DNA from: Candidatus Giovannonibacteria bacterium RIFCSPLOWO2_02_FULL_43_54 | Lineage (GTDB): Bacteria; Patescibacteriota; Minisyncoccia; UBA11713; 2-01-FULL-45-33 | DNA: 36,636 bases | Direction of reading: 5' to 3' | Assembly (NCBI GenBank): GCA_001778875.1 | Contig: MFIK01000045.1 | Span: 1 to 36,636 of the forward strand | Shown: positions 1 to 12,742 of the stretch, one piece after another | How positions within the stretch are numbered: position 1 is the stretch's first letter | Layout: every line of letters begins with the position of its first letter | Translations under genes and position numbers: made by a program | Notes under the pieces: model-generated | The model's database searches: none | Told to the model about the DNA's origin: nothing | Seen by the model: only the letters and a program-made list of their open reading frames with translations

Positions 1-95
1 GGCTTGGCCTCTATTTTTTGCAAGAACACGGCGGAATTCCCCCCACACCCCCCTTCCGCCGTGTTCTTGCGGGGACGGACGGAAATTTTGGCGGC
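1..95. repeat. Left 95-bp inverted repeat of the RM cassette
   Basis: Bases 1-95 are the exact reverse complement of 3301-3395, and identity stops at 96/3300. The repeat may continue left of the window. Each copy holds a hairpin: GCAAGAACACGGCGGAA (20-36) pairs with TTCCGCCGTGTTCTTGC (54-70) around a C-rich 17-nt loop. The T-run precedes the stem on this strand, so it is not a normal intrinsic terminator. The pair brackets the regulator and RM genes exactly. Confidence 0.95.
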
Positions 96-5921: not shown

Positions 5922-7457
5922 CTATCCGCCGTGGTAGCTCAGTGGTAGAGCAGACGCCTGAAGAGCGTCGTGTCGGGTGTTCGATTCACCCCCGCGGCAC
6001 CAGTTGGGAAAAGACAAGTCAGGGGAAGTCGCCTCCCCTCGCTCGGCGACCAAATCATACGGCGTTTTGGGCGAAAATTTGAACTGGCGGTTTTCTAAAA
6101 TATGGTTCGAGCCGATGTTTTTCAGAAATGTTGTCATTTCCGCTTTGTTTTCCGTTTCGATCAATTTTGCGGCTTGATGTAAGGATAAAATGAACTCACG
6201 AGCCGGTTCGAGCCAAGACAAACCCCTTTGCTCAATGTCAGCAATTTTTTCAGAAAGCGCGCCCTTTTGGAAAAGCAGACTTTGCTTTTTGGCGGCATAT
6301 TCTTCTGTGGATAAGGCATCAGCAAGGTAGACATCTAAAAGCTTTTGCAGTTTAGCCTCAATTGTTTCTAACTGCCTTTTTAACGTGCCGATCTCGGCTT
6401 GTGAATCTTGTCGCGCCTTGTCCTGTTCGCTATCCAATACCGCCAAAACTTTCTCTGTATCTTGGCTCGACAAAGAAACTTTTTGAAGAAAACTCTTGAT
6501 TTGATCGGTTAGCATCTCTTCTCTTAAAAAATGTTTTTCTTTGCATAGCCCTTTCTTTTTCGTGCAACGATAGTAAATAAATCCTTTTTGTGTTTCTGCG
6601 GTAATCGAAGCACCACACTTGCACTTCATTAAACCAAGAAAAGAAAAATTATGTTTTCTGATCTCTTTTTGCTTGCCTCGCTTACTCATCACTTCTTGGC
6701 ATGTATCAAAAAGTTTCTTTGAAGTTAACGGCTCGTGAGCTCCCTCAAAAATTTCCCCGCGATATTTCATGAGGCCAGTGTAGAAAATATTTTGTAAAAT
6801 TTTGTAGACCGTGTTAATGGACATCTCTTTATCAAGATTTCCTCTTAGATTATTTTCCTTGCACCAATTTGCGAGAGAATGAAGCGTATATGCTCCGGTG
6901 GCGTACATTTCGAACATTCCCCGAACCTTTAGGGCTTTATCGTGATCAATATCTATTCCACGAGTTTTCAGATTATTCGTGTAGCCAACCGGAGCCCAGC
7001 CGGGCCATACGCCATTCCGTATCTTTTGACGCAATCCTCTTTTCACATTCTCTCGCAAATTATCTACAAAATATTTCGATTGGCCGAACGCGATATTCAA
7101 CATAAACAAGCCTTGCGGTGTTGGTTCAAACCAGAACGTAGGAAATTTTAATGATTTAATCAAGCCGCGATCTACAAAGTAAATTATTTTTCCTCCGTCT
7201 ACCGAATTACGCGCGAGACGATCCGGATGCCATGAGATAATTCCATCTGCTTTCCCTTTCTCTAAAAATGACAACATTTCTGCGAATTTAATTCGCCCAG
7301 GTTCTTTGGCAGTTTTGGTCTCGACAAAAGTCGGACCGACAATTTCAAGTTTTTCTTTGGCGGCAAATTCCCTTAACTCAAAAATTTGGGCTTCAATGCT
7401 CAAAACCTGCCTATCTTCGTCCTCGGTGCTCTTTCGAGCGTATATCACATATCTCAT
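5922..7457 (-). CDS. Large serine recombinase whose C-terminal codons run through tRNA-Phe
   Basis: A 511-residue site-specific recombinase. The N-terminal resolvase domain has the YARKST motif with catalytic S10 and the downstream DRLARN motif. The central recombinase domain is followed by a zinc-ribbon of Cys pairs (MKCKCG...YYRC...C), a coiled coil at about 335-400, and a C-terminal tail. The last ~28 codons are antisense to tRNA-Phe, ending LPLSYHGG, so the frame is shaped by integration at the tRNA. The gene body is bracketed by 99-bp inverted repeats (5997-6095 and 7503-7601), the left one inside the reading frame. Both families of flanking fragments further right derive from this gene. 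It probably catalyses integration and excision at the tRNA 3' end. It could be only recently silent or still active: no disabling mutation is visible. Confidence 0.9.
   Translation of the reverse strand: MRYVIYARKSTEDEDRQVLSIEAQIFELREFAAKEKLEIVGPTFVETKTAKEPGRIKFAEMLSFLEKGKADGIISWHPDRLARNSVDGGKIIYFVDRGLIKSLKFPTFWFEPTPQGLFMLNIAFGQSKYFVDNLRENVKRGLRQKIRNGVWPGWAPVGYTNNLKTRGIDIDHDKALKVRGMFEMYATGAYTLHSLANWCKENNLRGNLDKEMSINTVYKILQNIFYTGLMKYRGEIFEGAHEPLTSKKLFDTCQEVMSKRGKQKEIRKHNFSFLGLMKCKCGASITAETQKGFIYYRCTKKKGLCKEKHFLREEMLTDQIKSFLQKVSLSSQDTEKVLAVLDSEQDKARQDSQAEIGTLKRQLETIEAKLQKLLDVYLADALSTEEYAAKKQSLLFQKGALSEKIADIEQRGLSWLEPAREFILSLHQAAKLIETENKAEMTTFLKNIGSNHILENRQFKFSPKTPYDLVAERGEATSPDLSFPNWCRGGESNTRHDALQASALPLSYHGG
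5928..6002 (+). tRNA. tRNA-Phe (anticodon GAA), integration site
   Basis: The cloverleaf has acceptor GCCGTGG/CCGCGGC (one T-G wobble), D-arm GCTCAGTGGTAGAGC, anticodon stem GACGC/GCGTC with loop CTGAAGA (anticodon GAA), T-arm with GTTCGATTC, discriminator A, and an encoded CCA. The 3' end GCACCA starts a 99-bp sequence repeated inverted at 7503-7601, and a degenerate match (GCACCAG then GGAAAAG) occurs at 10529-10546. This is what is expected of a recombinase attachment core at a tRNA 3' end. The whole gene lies antisense inside the recombinase frame. Confidence 0.95.
5997..6095. repeat. IR1-left, 99-bp inverted repeat flanking the recombinase
   Basis: Matches the reverse complement of 7503-7601 over 99 bp with one mismatch. 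It starts with the tRNA 3' end GCACCA and encodes, on the minus strand, the recombinase tail from about QFKFSPKTPYD to FPNWC. The two copies have equal length, so inverting the segment between them would keep the recombinase frame and exchange only the residues after WC. Confidence 0.95.
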
Positions 7458-7502
7458 GGTCTAAATTAGTTAATTAATAATGAAAAAATTTTCTTTTCCC
7501 CT

Positions 7503-7601
7503 GAAAACCGCCAGTTCAAATTTTCGGCCAAAACGCCGTATGATTTGGTCGCCGAGCGAGGGGAGGCGACTTCCCCTGACTTGTCTTTTCCCAACTGGTG
7601 C
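7503..7601. repeat. IR1-right, inverted copy of the recombinase 3' end
   Basis: Inverted copy of 5997-6095 lying 45 bp upstream of the recombinase start. On the plus strand it would encode the recombinase C-terminal segment again, with one codon change (Pro to Ala), then continue into the adjacent repeat IR2 as an open frame ending AATD. It overlaps IR2-left by 4 bp (GTGC). Confidence 0.95.
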
Positions 7602-7687
7602 GCTATTTTAAAGATAGTTCGAACGCATTTTGCGGCTTCGCCGCGAAATGATGGGGCAAAAAATTCGGCGGCGACAGATTGATTTTT
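7598..7687. repeat. IR2-left, 90-bp inverted repeat
   Basis: Matches the reverse complement of 8522-8611 over 90 bp with two mismatches (at 7673 and 7676). It contains an internal palindrome, GCGGCTTCGCCGC. Its inner edge directly abuts a recombinase-gene scrap at 7688. Confidence 0.95.
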
Positions 7688-7753
7688 AAAACTGCCAAAG
7701 AACCTGGAGAAAAACATCGGCTCGAACCATATTTTGGGGAAAAGAAAAATTTT
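7688..7753 (+). pseudogene. Recombinase gene scraps fused head to tail
   Basis: Bases 7688-7707 (AAAACTGCCAAAGAACCTGG) are identical to the recombinase coding strand where it encodes KTAKEPG near the N-terminus. Bases 7709-7735 are identical to the coding strand about 1.2 kb further on, where it encodes KNIGSNHI near the C-terminus. Nearly the whole gene between them is missing. Bases 7736-7753 (GGGGAAAAGAAAAATTTT) are in turn the near-complement of 7486-7502 upstream of the intact recombinase. This is a deletion remnant, not a coding gene. Confidence 0.85.
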
Positions 7754-8047
7754 ATGAATCAATTTTTTATTAGAAATAAATTTTATATTTTTGCAATTAT
7801 TTTTATTATAATAAGTTTCTTTGTGGCATTTTGGCTTCTGAGTTATATGACTGATCTTCCATCCAAAACTGCTCGAATTGTGCAACAAAAGGCAAACTTG
7901 AATCATTTTGGAAGTACTGTGCTTATCTTGCCTCTTTTTTCTCTTGCTACTGCATATTTTGGGTTTCGGGCAAAAGAATCGAAATTTTTAGCCATTACAA
8001 TTTTGTTATTGGTTGTGCTTTACTATAGTACGTTCATTTTCATTTAA
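7754..8047 (+). CDS. Small membrane protein, cassette 2
   Basis: A 97-residue protein with three hydrophobic segments: about residues 9-32, 52-70 and 77-97. The spacing suggests three membrane helices with a short loop containing LPSKTARIVQQKAN. I recognise no family. I chose the ATG at 7754 because the upstream part of the open frame is recombinase debris and repeat IR2. The stop codon directly abuts the ATG of the next gene at 8048, so the two are probably translated together. Both lie between the 90-bp inverted repeats IR2, as a two-gene cargo. AT content is high, in line with recent acquisition. Confidence 0.6.
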   Translation: MNQFFIRNKFYIFAIIFIIISFFVAFWLLSYMTDLPSKTARIVQQKANLNHFGSTVLILPLFSLATAYFGFRAKESKFLAITILLLVVLYYSTFIFI

Positions 8048-8431
8048 ATGAAAAAGGTGTATAAAATTTTGATTTTATTTGGAATTCTTCTTGTGGTTTT
8101 TGTGATAGGAACAGTTTTTCTGAAATCACTAGATAATGAAAGGTCAAAAAATCATGACATCCGCAGAGAAGAGGCCGTTAAAAATATCAGTTCGGCTCTA
8201 CAGGATTATGCCAATAAACACAACGGAATGTACCCAGCCGATTTATCAGAACTGCAAAAATTTTTCCCAGATCGCTACTTACCGACATATTTTGGAGAAA
8301 TCTATTATAGGTATAAAAGAATTGACAACAATCATTATTGTTTATATTCCAACCTTGAAACCAGGAAAGATGTTTTCTTTGCCAGTGAGAAGGAAAGTGG
8401 CTTTGGATCAACAGATTGTTCACCGAATTGA
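8048..8431 (+). CDS. Membrane-anchored GspG/pilin-like protein
   Basis: A 127-residue protein with an N-terminal membrane helix (about 6-26) and an exported domain. The segment AVKNISSALQDYANKHNGMYPADLSEL (split here: AVKNISSALQDYAN, then KHNGMYPADLSEL) resembles the conserved helix and YP loop of type II secretion pseudopilin GspG and type IV pilin-like proteins. A clear prepilin peptidase site (G/A then F at position +1, E at +5) is lacking, so it may be anchored and not assembled. Two cysteines in the C-terminal part (YCLYS and TDCSPN) could form a disulfide. It starts immediately after the stop of 7754-8047. Its role in the cassette is unknown. Confidence 0.6.
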   Translation: MKKVYKILILFGILLVVFVIGTVFLKSLDNERSKNHDIRREEAVKNISSALQDYANKHNGMYPADLSELQKFFPDRYLPTYFGEIYYRYKRIDNNHYCLYSNLETRKDVFFASEKESGFGSTDCSPN

Positions 8432-8492
8432 TGAAAGCAAATTTTATTGCGTTTTCTTTTTCTCCTCATCCTCAGATCTTATCGAATAAGAC

Positions 8493-8521
8493 TTGCCGCC
8501 AAAGAAAAACTTGAAATTGTC
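8493..8521 (+). pseudogene. Recombinase N-terminal scrap
   Basis: Twenty-nine bases identical to the recombinase coding strand where it encodes FAAKEKLEIV. In the intact gene this lies just 21 nt before the KTAKEPG scrap found at 7688, at the other inner edge of IR2. The scrap directly abuts IR2-right, so both inner edges of the cassette come from the same small part of the recombinase gene. Confidence 0.85.
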
Positions 8522-8611
8522 AAAAATCAATCCGTAGCCGCCGAATTTTTTGCCCCATCATTTCGCGGCGAAGCCGCAAAATGCGTTCGAACTATCTTTA
8601 AAATAGCGCAC
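8522..8611. repeat. IR2-right, 90-bp inverted repeat
   Basis: Inverted partner of 7598-7687 (two mismatches). Its outer edge runs into a string of short palindromes starting at 8610. Confidence 0.95.
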
Positions 8612-9607: not shown

Positions 9608-9635
9608 GAATTTGCCGCCAAAGAAAAACTTGAAA
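9608..9635 (+). pseudogene. Recombinase N-terminal scrap, second copy
   Basis: Twenty-eight bases identical to the recombinase coding strand encoding EFAAKEKLE, overlapping the same region as the scrap at 8493-8521. It starts 2 bp after the SET stop codon. The repeated retention of exactly this segment after each cargo gene points to a recombination boundary. Confidence 0.85.
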
Positions 9636-9715: not shown

Positions 9716-9744
9716 TTGATTTCTTATCCGACTAGTGCTAATGT
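9716..9744 (+). promoter_or_regulatory. Promoter of the candidate small RNA
   Basis: -35 TTGATT (9716-9721), 17-bp spacer, -10 TAATGT (9739-9744) with a TG extension (TGC at 9736-9738). The predicted start is at about 9751, exactly the first base of the outer stem of the structured element. Confidence 0.55.
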
Positions 9745-9750
9745 AAAAAG

Positions 9751-9840
9751 GTGCTTGTGGGCGCAAGCCCCGTTCAGCTAAGGATTTCCTAAGCTGAAGG
9801 CAAGCACGACAAAGATACTGCATTTATATGCGGTGTTTTT
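9751..9840 (+). ncRNA. Candidate ~90-nt structured small RNA with three-way junction
   Basis: An outer stem GTGCTTG/CAAGCAC (9751-9757 with 9801-9807) encloses two hairpins. One is GGGC-GCAA-GCCC (9759-9770), a GNRA tetraloop. The other is TTCAGCT/AGCTGAA (73-79 with 92-98 of the 9700s) extended by AGG/CCT across an A-A mismatch. Only a few unpaired bases separate the helices, so this is a compact three-way junction. An intrinsic terminator hairpin follows (ACTGCAT/ATGCGGT, 9817-9834) with five Ts. A promoter is positioned so that transcription begins at the outer stem. I match it to no known RNA class. No open frame is present. It is convergent with 9843-10301, whose stop lies 3 bp beyond. 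Confidence 0.6.
9817..9840 (+). terminator. Intrinsic terminator of the candidate small RNA
   Basis: 7-bp stem (one T-G wobble) with loop TTAT, followed by GTTTTTG. There is no T-run on the other strand, so it serves the plus strand. Confidence 0.7.
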
Positions 9841-9842
9841 GT

Positions 9843-10301
9843 TTATCCGTCTTCTATTCCGCTGTCGTAGAGTGTCTGCCCTCCCCTTAGTTTGGAATCC
9901 GGCATCACGCTCCAAAAAGTAACGTTGCCGTCGCCAACTCGTCTCAAGATCGTCCGGATCTTTATTTTGTTTTCACCGACAATAGCAACAAACCCCCAGT
10001 ATTCAGCTTCTTTGGTTCGTGATAAACCATCTTTTCCTTTCTTGCCTACAGCTACGAACTCTTTTCTATGCTCCTGCAAAGTTCCGGAGTTCTTGATAAC
10101 CGTGATTGCCAAAGGCAGGAGACTAAATTTCAGAAGTTGCTCCTGCTTATCTCTTTCCCGCCTTGCCGAAAACTGCAGATGGTGAAAACCATCGGAATTG
10201 AAAACGACTTCGCTTTTCAAATACGGATTATGTATTTTTTGCTGAGCATCGTATATCGCCCTAGCCTTAACTTTTCTTTCATTGAAATAATCTGGATCCA
10301 T
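9843..10301 (-). CDS. Hypothetical small protein, possibly a nuclease-like domain
   Basis: A 152-residue cytoplasmic protein with no signal or membrane segment. Notable pieces are GFHHLQFSARRERD, LPLAITVIKNSGTLQE, YWGFVAIVGENKIKIRTILRR and GDGNVTFWSVMP. The mix of a His-containing strand, conserved Arg residues and a final FWS motif is reminiscent of small RNase-like toxin or PBECR-type domains. I cannot assign it. The start is supported by a -10 box TATGAT (10311-10316, minus strand) with TTGCGC 16 bp upstream and the absence of an SD. Immediately upstream in this frame is a stop codon, so a frameshifted extension into the frame at 10302-10660 cannot be excluded. It is convergent with the candidate small RNA. 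Confidence 0.5.
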   Translation of the reverse strand: MDPDYFNERKVKARAIYDAQQKIHNPYLKSEVVFNSDGFHHLQFSARRERDKQEQLLKFSLLPLAITVIKNSGTLQEHRKEFVAVGKKGKDGLSRTKEAEYWGFVAIVGENKIKIRTILRRVGDGNVTFWSVMPDSKLRGGQTLYDSGIEDG

Positions 10302-10660
10302 ATCGGTTTAATCATATTCTTTTTCGCATTTTGCGCAAATTTTATCCTAAGCTTATTACCAACGGCAAGTAACCCTTTCTTGTGAGGGGTTCTTACTTTG
10401 CTATGATTGCCACACAAGAAATTTACGCAGCTAACCCATCCGTGGTCTCTGCGGGCGGATTTGTTTTGAAATACTTTACGAGCTTTCGAAGCAATCTGTC
10501 CCAAGTTCGAGGTATGTCCTGATGCGGGGCACCAGAAAGGAAAAGTCAAATAGTTTTGGTTCGCCTCGCGGAGTTTATCCGCCATTTCGGCGGACTCGGC
10601 GACTAATTGGTATTCAATTTTCGGGACAAATCTGTTGATAAAGCGTCCGCTAAGAGCATA
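10217..10660 (-). pseudogene. Decayed serine-recombinase tail and att-like remnant
   Basis: An open minus-strand frame upstream of 9843-10301. Its first part reads FVPKIEYQLVAES, then YLTFPFWC. This parallels the intact recombinase tail FSPKTPYDLVAER then DLSFPNWC. At the corresponding DNA position, GCACCAGAAAGGAAAAGTCAA (10529-10549) resembles the tRNA-Phe junction GCACCAGTTGGGAAAAGACAA (5997-6017). The sequence just left of it (10505-10534) has a GTTCGAGG and GGGGCACCA arrangement like a tRNA 3' half, but no cloverleaf forms. The rest of the frame has a Cys/His-containing segment of unknown origin. Best read as the far boundary of an older integration. No start codon with an initiation signal is seen. 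This covers most of the gene-poor stretch 10302-10716. Confidence 0.5.
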
Positions 10661-11227: not shown

Positions 11228-12742
11228 ATGTTCATGGCGCAGATCAAAGAAGAAATAGGGAAAATAGTGGGCGACGAGATTGTCTTTTCGGTCGAGCGGC
11301 CGGAAGATCCGGAGCATGGCGATTATTCGTCCAACGTCGCCTTGGTGCTCTCTAAGAAAGAAGGTAAAAATCCAAAAGAAGTCGCGGAGCGCATTAAAGA
11401 CCAACTTGGAAGCTCGGCTTCCAAGTTCGGATTTTTAGAGAAAGTTGAGGTTGCAGGACCGGGATTTCTGAATTTTTTTCTTGCAAAAAAAGCTCTAATT
11501 CAGGCACTTGGAAACCCGGTTTCCAAGTTAACAAAAAAGCAGAAAATTAATATCGAATTTGTTTCGGCAAATCCAACGGGGCCTTTGACGATGGCCAACG
11601 GCAGGGGGGGCTTTTACGGGGACGCGCTCGCGAACATTTTTGAGGCCTTGGGCCACAATGTTACGCGCGAATACTATATTAATGATGCGGGGAACCAGAT
11701 AAAGCTTTTGGGCGAGAGCATTTTAGCGGCGGACGGAAAGATTCCCCCGCGCGAAGAATTTTATAAAGGAGAATATATCAAAAAATTAAAAGGAAAAACG
11801 GCAAAGCAAGCGACCGCAATTTTACTGAAAGAAATTAAATCATCTCTTAAAAAAGCAGGCGTTAAATTTGATGTTTGGTTTTCGGAAGATAAAAATTTGC
11901 ACAAAAAAGGCGAACTCAAAAAAGTTCTTGAATTTTTGAACAAAAAACACGCAATCAAAGAGAAAGAAGGCGCGTTGTGGTTGGGAGATGCCGTTGTAAT
12001 TAAATCTGACAAAAACCCGACATATTTTTTGGCTGACCTCGCGTACCATTATGATAAATTCATAAAAAGAAAATTTGATATCGCGGTAGATGTCTGGGGA
12101 GCGGACCACCACGGTTATATAGAAAGGATGAAAAATGGAGTTGAGGCGATTGGAGTTTCGCCTGACCGGCTAAAAATAATAATAATGCAGCTTGTACGTT
12201 TGGTTTCCGGCGGAAAAGAAGTTAAAATGTCTAAGCGCACAGGAGAATTTGTTACGCTTGATGAATTGTTAAAAGATGTCGGGGTTGATGCGGTGCGGTG
12301 GTTTTTTTTGGAACGGAGCCCGAATACACATATGGATTTTGATATGGATTTTGCAAGGGAGCGGTCAAAGAAAAATCCCGTATACTATGTTCAATACGCG
12401 CACGCGAGGGCGTGTAGTATTTTGAGGAATGGTAAGCAGGTCAAATTTAGGACATCCGATGTCCAAATATTAAAAGAGACAGAAGAACTTGCGCTTATCA
12501 AAAAAATTCTCCAGCTTCCGGAAATTATCGAGGATATTGCAAGTGATTATCAAGTACATCGCCTGACACGCTATGCTTATGAGTTTGCACAGACTTTCAC
12601 TAATTTTTATGAGAAGCATTTGGTAATTGATAAAAAAAACAGGGAGCTCACGCAAGCCCGCCTTGCTTTGGTGTTTGCCACAAAAAAAACTTTAAAGCAA
12701 ACGCTCGGTTTAATGGGAATTTCGGCTCCCGAAAAAATGTAA
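11228..12742 (+). CDS. argS: Arginyl-tRNA synthetase with altered HIGH motif
   Basis: Class I synthetase of 504 aa charging tRNA-Arg. The N-terminal tRNA-binding domain is followed by the catalytic core with [16 protein letters not shown]. The usual HxGH signature here reads T121-M-A-N124, lacking both histidines. KMSKR is intact at 333-337, and the C-terminal DALR anticodon-binding domain is present with its usual arrangement. [14 protein letters not shown] and [10 protein letters not shown] are the expected ArgRS signatures, so the identity is secure. Two 23-25-bp palindromes (11403-11427 and 11506-11528) lie in frame in the N-terminal part and encode LGSSASK and LGNPVSK. TACATT at 11215-11220 lies 7 nt before the start and there is no SD, so initiation is probably leaderless. 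rdgB follows 4 nt after the stop. Confidence 0.95.
11403..11427. repeat. In-frame palindrome in argS, family A
   Basis: AACTTGGAAGC-TCG-GCTTCCAAGTT: a perfect 11-bp stem with 3-nt loop, read as QLGSSASKF. It shares outer arms and reading frame with 11506-11528 and with 35355-35377 in leuS. Confidence 0.95.
11506..11528. repeat. In-frame palindrome in argS, family A, second copy
   Basis: ACTTGGAAAC-CCG-GTTTCCAAGT: a perfect 10-bp stem, read as LGNPVSKL, in the same phase as the copy 103 bp upstream. Confidence 0.95.

Follow-up and report, generated by a model that had tools for sequence, protein, structure and literature searches.

A structured RNA family convergent with LPD3-like genes in Patescibacteria: a candidate RNA-antitoxin module

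Results

The window (the whole 36,636-nt stretch of Candidatus Giovannonibacteria DNA that was analysed) holds the signals of a small RNA on the forward strand at 9716-9840 and, on the reverse strand, a convergent gene for a 152-aa protein at 9843-10301. The promoter region (9716-9744) is made up of the -35 element TTGATT (9716-9721), a 17-nt spacer and the extended -10 element TGC-TAATGT (9736-9744, with TAATGT at 9739-9744). Six nucleotides lie between TAATGT and G9751, which is the first paired base of a predicted three-way junction (9751-9807). Its closing helix P1 pairs 9751-9758 with 9800-9807, P2 pairs 9759-9762 with 9767-9770 below a GCAA loop of the GNRA type (GGGC-GCAA-GCCC), and P3 pairs 9773-9779 with 9792-9798 and has an apical extension (9781-9783/9788-9790). 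An intrinsic terminator with a 13-bp stem (AAAGATA.../...TGTTTTT) and a 4-nt loop is predicted at 9811-9840; the convergent reverse-strand gene probably makes use of it as well. The stop codon of that gene (9843-9845) follows the terminator by 2 nt.

Folding of the 90-nt RNA (9751-9840) gives the three-way junction and the terminator hairpin at -44.5 kcal/mol, with z = -6.9 against dinucleotide shuffles, none of which folded equally well (0/200). The forward strand was assigned as sense because the homologue L007 keeps the fold only on that strand. Promoter, start, junction and terminator, all proposed in a first-pass annotation, lie at the positions given there, and the start G and the terminator recur in the homologues; for the promoter, the position and the consensus seen in homologues speak in favour of the proposal, while the window's own -10 element is weak. 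The window promoter is absent from a list of consensus promoters and alone would be unconvincing. Homologues carry TTGACn-16..18-TGnTATAnT at the same distance from the RNA as in the window, with a promoter score of at least 9 of 12 in 55 of 71 homologues compared with 2.6% of random positions, and an average of 9.4 of 12 compared with 6.3 when positions within these loci are picked at random. We infer that an RNA of about 90 nt is transcribed from its own promoter. The stem sequence of the terminator is replaced in homologues while its pairing is kept. The source genome has one copy of the RNA, and Rfam, searched at the gathering threshold and at E up to 5, gave no relevant match, only one chance microRNA match.

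A DNA search of ten genomes of the family found two relatives of the RNA, L006 (92%) and L007 (79%), in unrelated gene neighbourhoods. They agree with the window RNA in the start G, in where the -10 element lies and in the terminator, and an apical double change from G-C to A-U is already visible among the three. With a first covariance model the RNA was found in 44 of 383 genomes of the class, leaving uncounted three matches that look like chance terminator matches (L053, L054 and L056) and one that runs into a gene (L050). An improved model, R2, found it in 46 of 366, a patchy distribution of about 12% of class genomes. The check named in the first-pass annotation, a covariance search across Patescibacteria for compensatory changes in the three stems, turned out well: compensatory double changes occur in 31 of the 33 pairs among 71 sequences (25 of 33 among 31 sequences), and covariation is present in all helices, P1-P3 included. 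Across the 71 aligned copies, pairing holds in 94.9% of base-pair cells and the covariation score is 0.51, compared with 0.20 for shuffled alignments; when the partners are slid by 1-3 columns, pairing falls from about 95% to 40-49%. Fitting the alignments to the model favours the structure, but the slid and shuffled controls are nonetheless far off. The compensatory changes indicate that the RNA's own fold is selected. This family, designated RNA-I, thus combines a three-way junction with covarying P1-P3, its own promoter and a terminator. It has three subtypes: A with a GGA-type apical extension and a GNAA loop, B with a GUCA loop and a short P3, and C with a GCGUUUGG/GUGUUUGG P1. From the sequence data, the window RNA is almost certainly a genuine structured RNA that was previously uncatalogued.

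At nearly every RNA locus a homologous gene ends on the opposite strand a few nucleotides past the terminator, as the gene at 9843-10301 does in the window. A partner profile built from 27 proteins matched in 42 of 383 class genomes, and among homologues at E of about 1e-25 or better with a 3' end readable on the contig the RNA was immediately downstream on the opposite strand in 42 of 42, the weakest R2 matches beside these genes being 24.9 bits (G229) and 33.1 bits (G128). In the wider phylum the protein was found in 36 of 379 genomes, and there too the RNA mostly accompanies it. Named genomes, scanned independently, yielded 50 loci, 49 of them with the RNA, mostly in Parcubacteria-type hosts (Yanofsky-, Zambryski-, Staskawicz-, Nomura-, Taylor-, Kaiser-, Adlerbacteria and others); among the named hosts that fall outside Patescibacteria there are metagenome bins, whose binning may be wrong. 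The sole locus lacking the RNA in that scan (L180, Mucilaginibacter) is a fragment missing both ends and is therefore not an intact gene without RNA. In every one of the 92 locus entries for which an RNA was aligned, the two elements lie on opposite strands, some genomic sites being entered under two locus ids, and the distance to the stop codon is mostly 0-11 nt. Distances between RNA bodies track protein distances (Mantel r 0.58, 0/5000 permutations) while those of the terminator, which lies between RNA body and gene, barely do so (r 0.12), although inheritance as one cassette gives the same co-divergence signal and the short terminator may be saturated.

The partner protein had no match in Pfam for the window copy. 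Six of nine family members tested match PF18798 (LPD3) with E from 0.01 to 1.7e-5, all below the cut-off, the best at 25.5 bits against a Pfam cut-off of 27. To our knowledge LPD3 is a domain without an assigned function. No DUF3800 domain was found in the partner protein, NCBIfam and PADLOC gave no meaningful match, and a search of the PDB by sequence showed no similarity to any solved structure. Six residues are invariant in the family (G38, H41, R50, L61, G125 and S131). The structure predicted for the window protein is globular over its 152 aa (pLDDT 89), and that of a compact member, L037, reaches pLDDT 90.5. The top five matches in a structure search of viral models are LPD3 proteins. 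Foldseek alone gave no significant match in the PDB; with VIA-align the best match is 6cp9, the CdiA-CT of K. pneumoniae 342, with Z 4.8 for the window protein and 5.5 for L037. The top four chains for L037, all from bacterial toxins, are 6cp9 (a CDI tRNase toxin), 7m5f (CDI), 3u97 (the BrnT RNase toxin) and 7vd7 (a toxin-antitoxin complex). These Z values are low (4-5.5) and prove no function, though the agreement among toxin matches is suggestive. The Kp342 toxin is a BECR tRNase (PMC9086364). Considering the models, the fold matches, the weak PF18798 matches in relatives and the conserved convergent position, we infer a divergent relative of LPD3 whose model best matches BECR-fold RNase toxins, and thus a putative RNase.

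A possible promoter of the partner gene, TTGCGC-16-TATGAT, lies at 10311-10338 on the reverse strand, with a like placement in part of the homologues. TATGAT ends 9 nt before the start codon, so that the mRNA would be near-leaderless and has no Shine-Dalgarno sequence. Among the partner genes of 52 loci a TATAAT-like, -10-like hexamer is often found 4-14 nt before the start codon and a Shine-Dalgarno-like motif in only 3, which together suggest leaderless mRNAs.

Thirteen inspected RNAs have no partner homologue nearby (L006, L014, L018, L023, L030, L032, L035, L038, L041, L042, L045, L046 and L051), and in most of them promoter and terminator are intact; L041, L045 and L051 are the weakest and less certain, with no good terminator. 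In L014 and L018 nothing is left of the gene but its last codons (a GIEDE-type tail), next to an RNA and a promoter that are both intact, and in L007 the gene is frameshifted or broken and the RNA intact. The converse, an intact close homologue of the gene without the RNA, was not found in the class sample, the wider phylum or the named genomes. The gene is thus lost alone and the RNA never while the gene is present, the pattern expected of an antidote.

Other elements were seen beside some of these RNAs. An IS66-like transposase occupies 7-1401 nt past the intact RNA of L030, exactly at the partner-gene site. In L038 the RNA adjoins, by eye, RelE-like and DUF4065-like genes (1594-1923 on the reverse strand and the gene upstream) in place of the usual partner, apparently a type II toxin-antitoxin pair, the RelE-like protein having no Pfam match. 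Past the RNAs of L035, L051 and L046 there are NYN-type genes (by eye), convergent behind apparent additional small RNAs that have TTGAC/TATACT promoters; this may be another case of an RNA paired with an RNase.

Divergent homologues of the gene without an R2 match have other structured RNAs in the convergent position. These were sorted into kinds II (L092, L129 and L131), III (L128 and L134) and IV (L139 and L140), which rest on two or three sequences each, with perhaps another kind in L093. The contig of L129 (L208 1-6480, G612:C36) carries an array in which seven units lie on one strand and a 107-nt repeat recurs about every 730-1030 nt; the genes in it are LPD3-like, DUF3800, NYN and others of no recognised type. 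In this array an Rfam DUF3800-II RNA (1408-1477, forward) meets a DUF3800 gene (1460-2068, reverse) at the stop codon; an LPD3-like gene that has an RNA of its own lies one gene away. Overall the arrangement is reminiscent of a cassette array in which RNase-type genes are accompanied by convergent RNAs.

On the far side of the partner gene, argS (11228-12742) is common to relatives with 69-76% protein identity. None of the window genes upstream of argS was found upstream of argS in the relatives, within the few kilobases compared, and the cassette appears from this comparison to lie in a variable region. The RNA is 92% identical between two genera (the window and L006) while their argS DNA is 73% identical, which fits transfer or strong constraint. 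No relatives were found among phage records (by similar DNA), plasmids and phages (by protein) or IMG/VR viral contigs, and the cassette is therefore not obviously phage- or plasmid-borne.

Elsewhere in the window, nested inverted repeats at 5997-8611 have arms of 99-101 nt that are 93-99% complementary (5997-6095/7503-7601 and 7598-7698/8511-8611) and surround a serine recombinase, whose reading frame runs over tRNA-Phe (5928-6002). A 28-nt repeat, GAATTTGCCGCCAAAGAAAAACTTGAAA, occurs at 7343-7370, 8493-8521 and 9608-9635, the last copy just upstream of the RNA promoter.

Discussion

The near-perfect linkage across the phylum strongly supports the earlier guess of an RNA-protein pair with the gene at 9843-10301, and the genome comparisons make it nearly certain that the pair is obligate. 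No earlier description of an RNA pairing for this LPD3-like protein family was found in the literature. A cis-regulator or riboswitch was rejected, since in no linked locus does the adjacent gene share the strand of the RNA.

Our preferred reading, with a probability of a little under 60%, is a toxin-antitoxin-like module in which an RNase toxin would be held by the folded RNA through direct RNA-protein binding. The gene would encode a small RNase of the LPD3/BECR kind that is harmful when free, and the convergent RNA of about 90 nt, transcribed from its own promoter and ending at the terminator against the gene's stop codon, would fold into a compact three-way junction and neutralise the protein, probably by occupying its RNA-binding or active site. 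The cassette probably moves between genomes of Patescibacteria. The assignment of the protein as toxin and the RNA as its antidote is well motivated by the linkage, the one-sided loss, the covarying fold, the co-divergence of RNA body and protein, the toxin-like structural matches, the other RNAs in the same place and the AbiF precedent. Against it may be counted the low Z values, the layout unlike that of known type III systems, and that orphan RNAs would equally be expected of an RNA with a separate function.

The strict pairing, the co-divergence and the family-specific RNAs would fit any obligate RNA-protein complex, including one in which the RNA is a cofactor or guide and the protein an RNase or RNA-binding effector that needs it, such as a defence ribonucleoprotein. 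This is unlikely considering that the 13 inspected RNAs persist without the partner gene, most with their signals intact, and that a variable guide-like segment is absent and the unpaired stretches are short. The possibility that the neighbouring gene merely regulates or processes a separate regulatory sRNA agrees with the ability of the RNA to stand alone, but is very improbable for an RNA that is so patchily distributed, is missing from close relatives and is always beside the gene wherever a close gene homologue exists.

Control of the gene at the nucleic-acid level, by antisense pairing or convergent-transcription interference in a type I-like manner, is suggested by the layout, because a terminator that abuts the stop codon of a convergent gene means that the 3' ends probably overlap. 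Antisense control of the gene's start is ruled out, with no cognate complementarity in 52 pairs (duplex energy -19.84 for cognate and -19.88 for non-cognate pairs, mean rank 0.51); the RNA thus differs at the start region from a type I antitoxin, which is antisense to the toxin mRNA. The partner is a globular protein of about 150 aa, unlike the small hydrophobic peptide of type I systems, and the compensatory changes show selection on the RNA's own fold. Taken together this makes nucleic-acid control rather improbable.

For the proposed RNA-protein module the closest known mechanism, by analogy, is that of the type III toxin-antitoxin systems (ToxIN, CptIN and TenpIN) and AbiF/RCd22, with which it would share the logic of a folded RNA that neutralises a toxic protein by binding. 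In known type III systems the antitoxin precedes the toxin on the same strand, mostly in the form of tandem repeats, whereas the RNA in the window is single and convergent and forms a three-way junction, and the putative toxin is LPD3/BECR-like. In AbiF/RCd22 the toxic protein is neutralised by a non-coding RNA that binds it directly, both in cis and in trans (PMC12373285). The predicted topology and the top structural matches of the partner protein suggest a resemblance to BECR-fold RNase toxins (CdiA-CT Kp342, BrnT and RelE/HigB), at low Z values and with no sequence similarity to any solved structure. The antidotes of those toxins are proteins, whereas an RNA is proposed here. Weak profile matches below the Pfam cut-off and the viral LPD3 models point towards LPD3, but here the gene stands alone with an RNA partner; in the parts of PMC5512222 drawn on here, LPD3 (PF18798) is described among the domains of phage and plasmid polyvalent proteins, with no mention of an RNA partner.

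As a kind of element, the closest known are the DUF3800 RNAs, considering the DUF3800-II RNA at the DUF3800 stop codon in the array of L208. These RNAs (for example RF02961, DUF3800-II) are likewise small, structured and convergent with a small protein gene, but the window RNA matches no DUF3800 covariance model and its partner belongs to another, LPD3-like protein family. In DUF3800, too, one protein family is combined with several unrelated RNA folds. We know of no assigned function for the DUF3800 RNAs.

The RNA family described here is new and structured, has a defined protein partner and occurs in dozens of tiny uncultured bacteria; a literature search found no RNA antitoxin described for Patescibacteria. 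LPD3 gains a testable activity and an inhibitor, both predicted. It is a tentative idea, somewhat short of an even chance, that the stand-alone LPD3/BECR RNases belong to a large class of convergent RNA-antitoxin modules that has gone unrecognised, a single toxin fold being combined with structured RNAs of several unrelated kinds (four or more in these data) in an architecture shared with the DUF3800 RNAs and perhaps the NYN-RNase loci. If true, a role would also be suggested for the DUF3800 RNAs, with a common function for convergent RNA/protein pairs, and convergent RNA-plus-RNase cassettes, some of them in arrays, would be a widespread conflict system of Patescibacteria.
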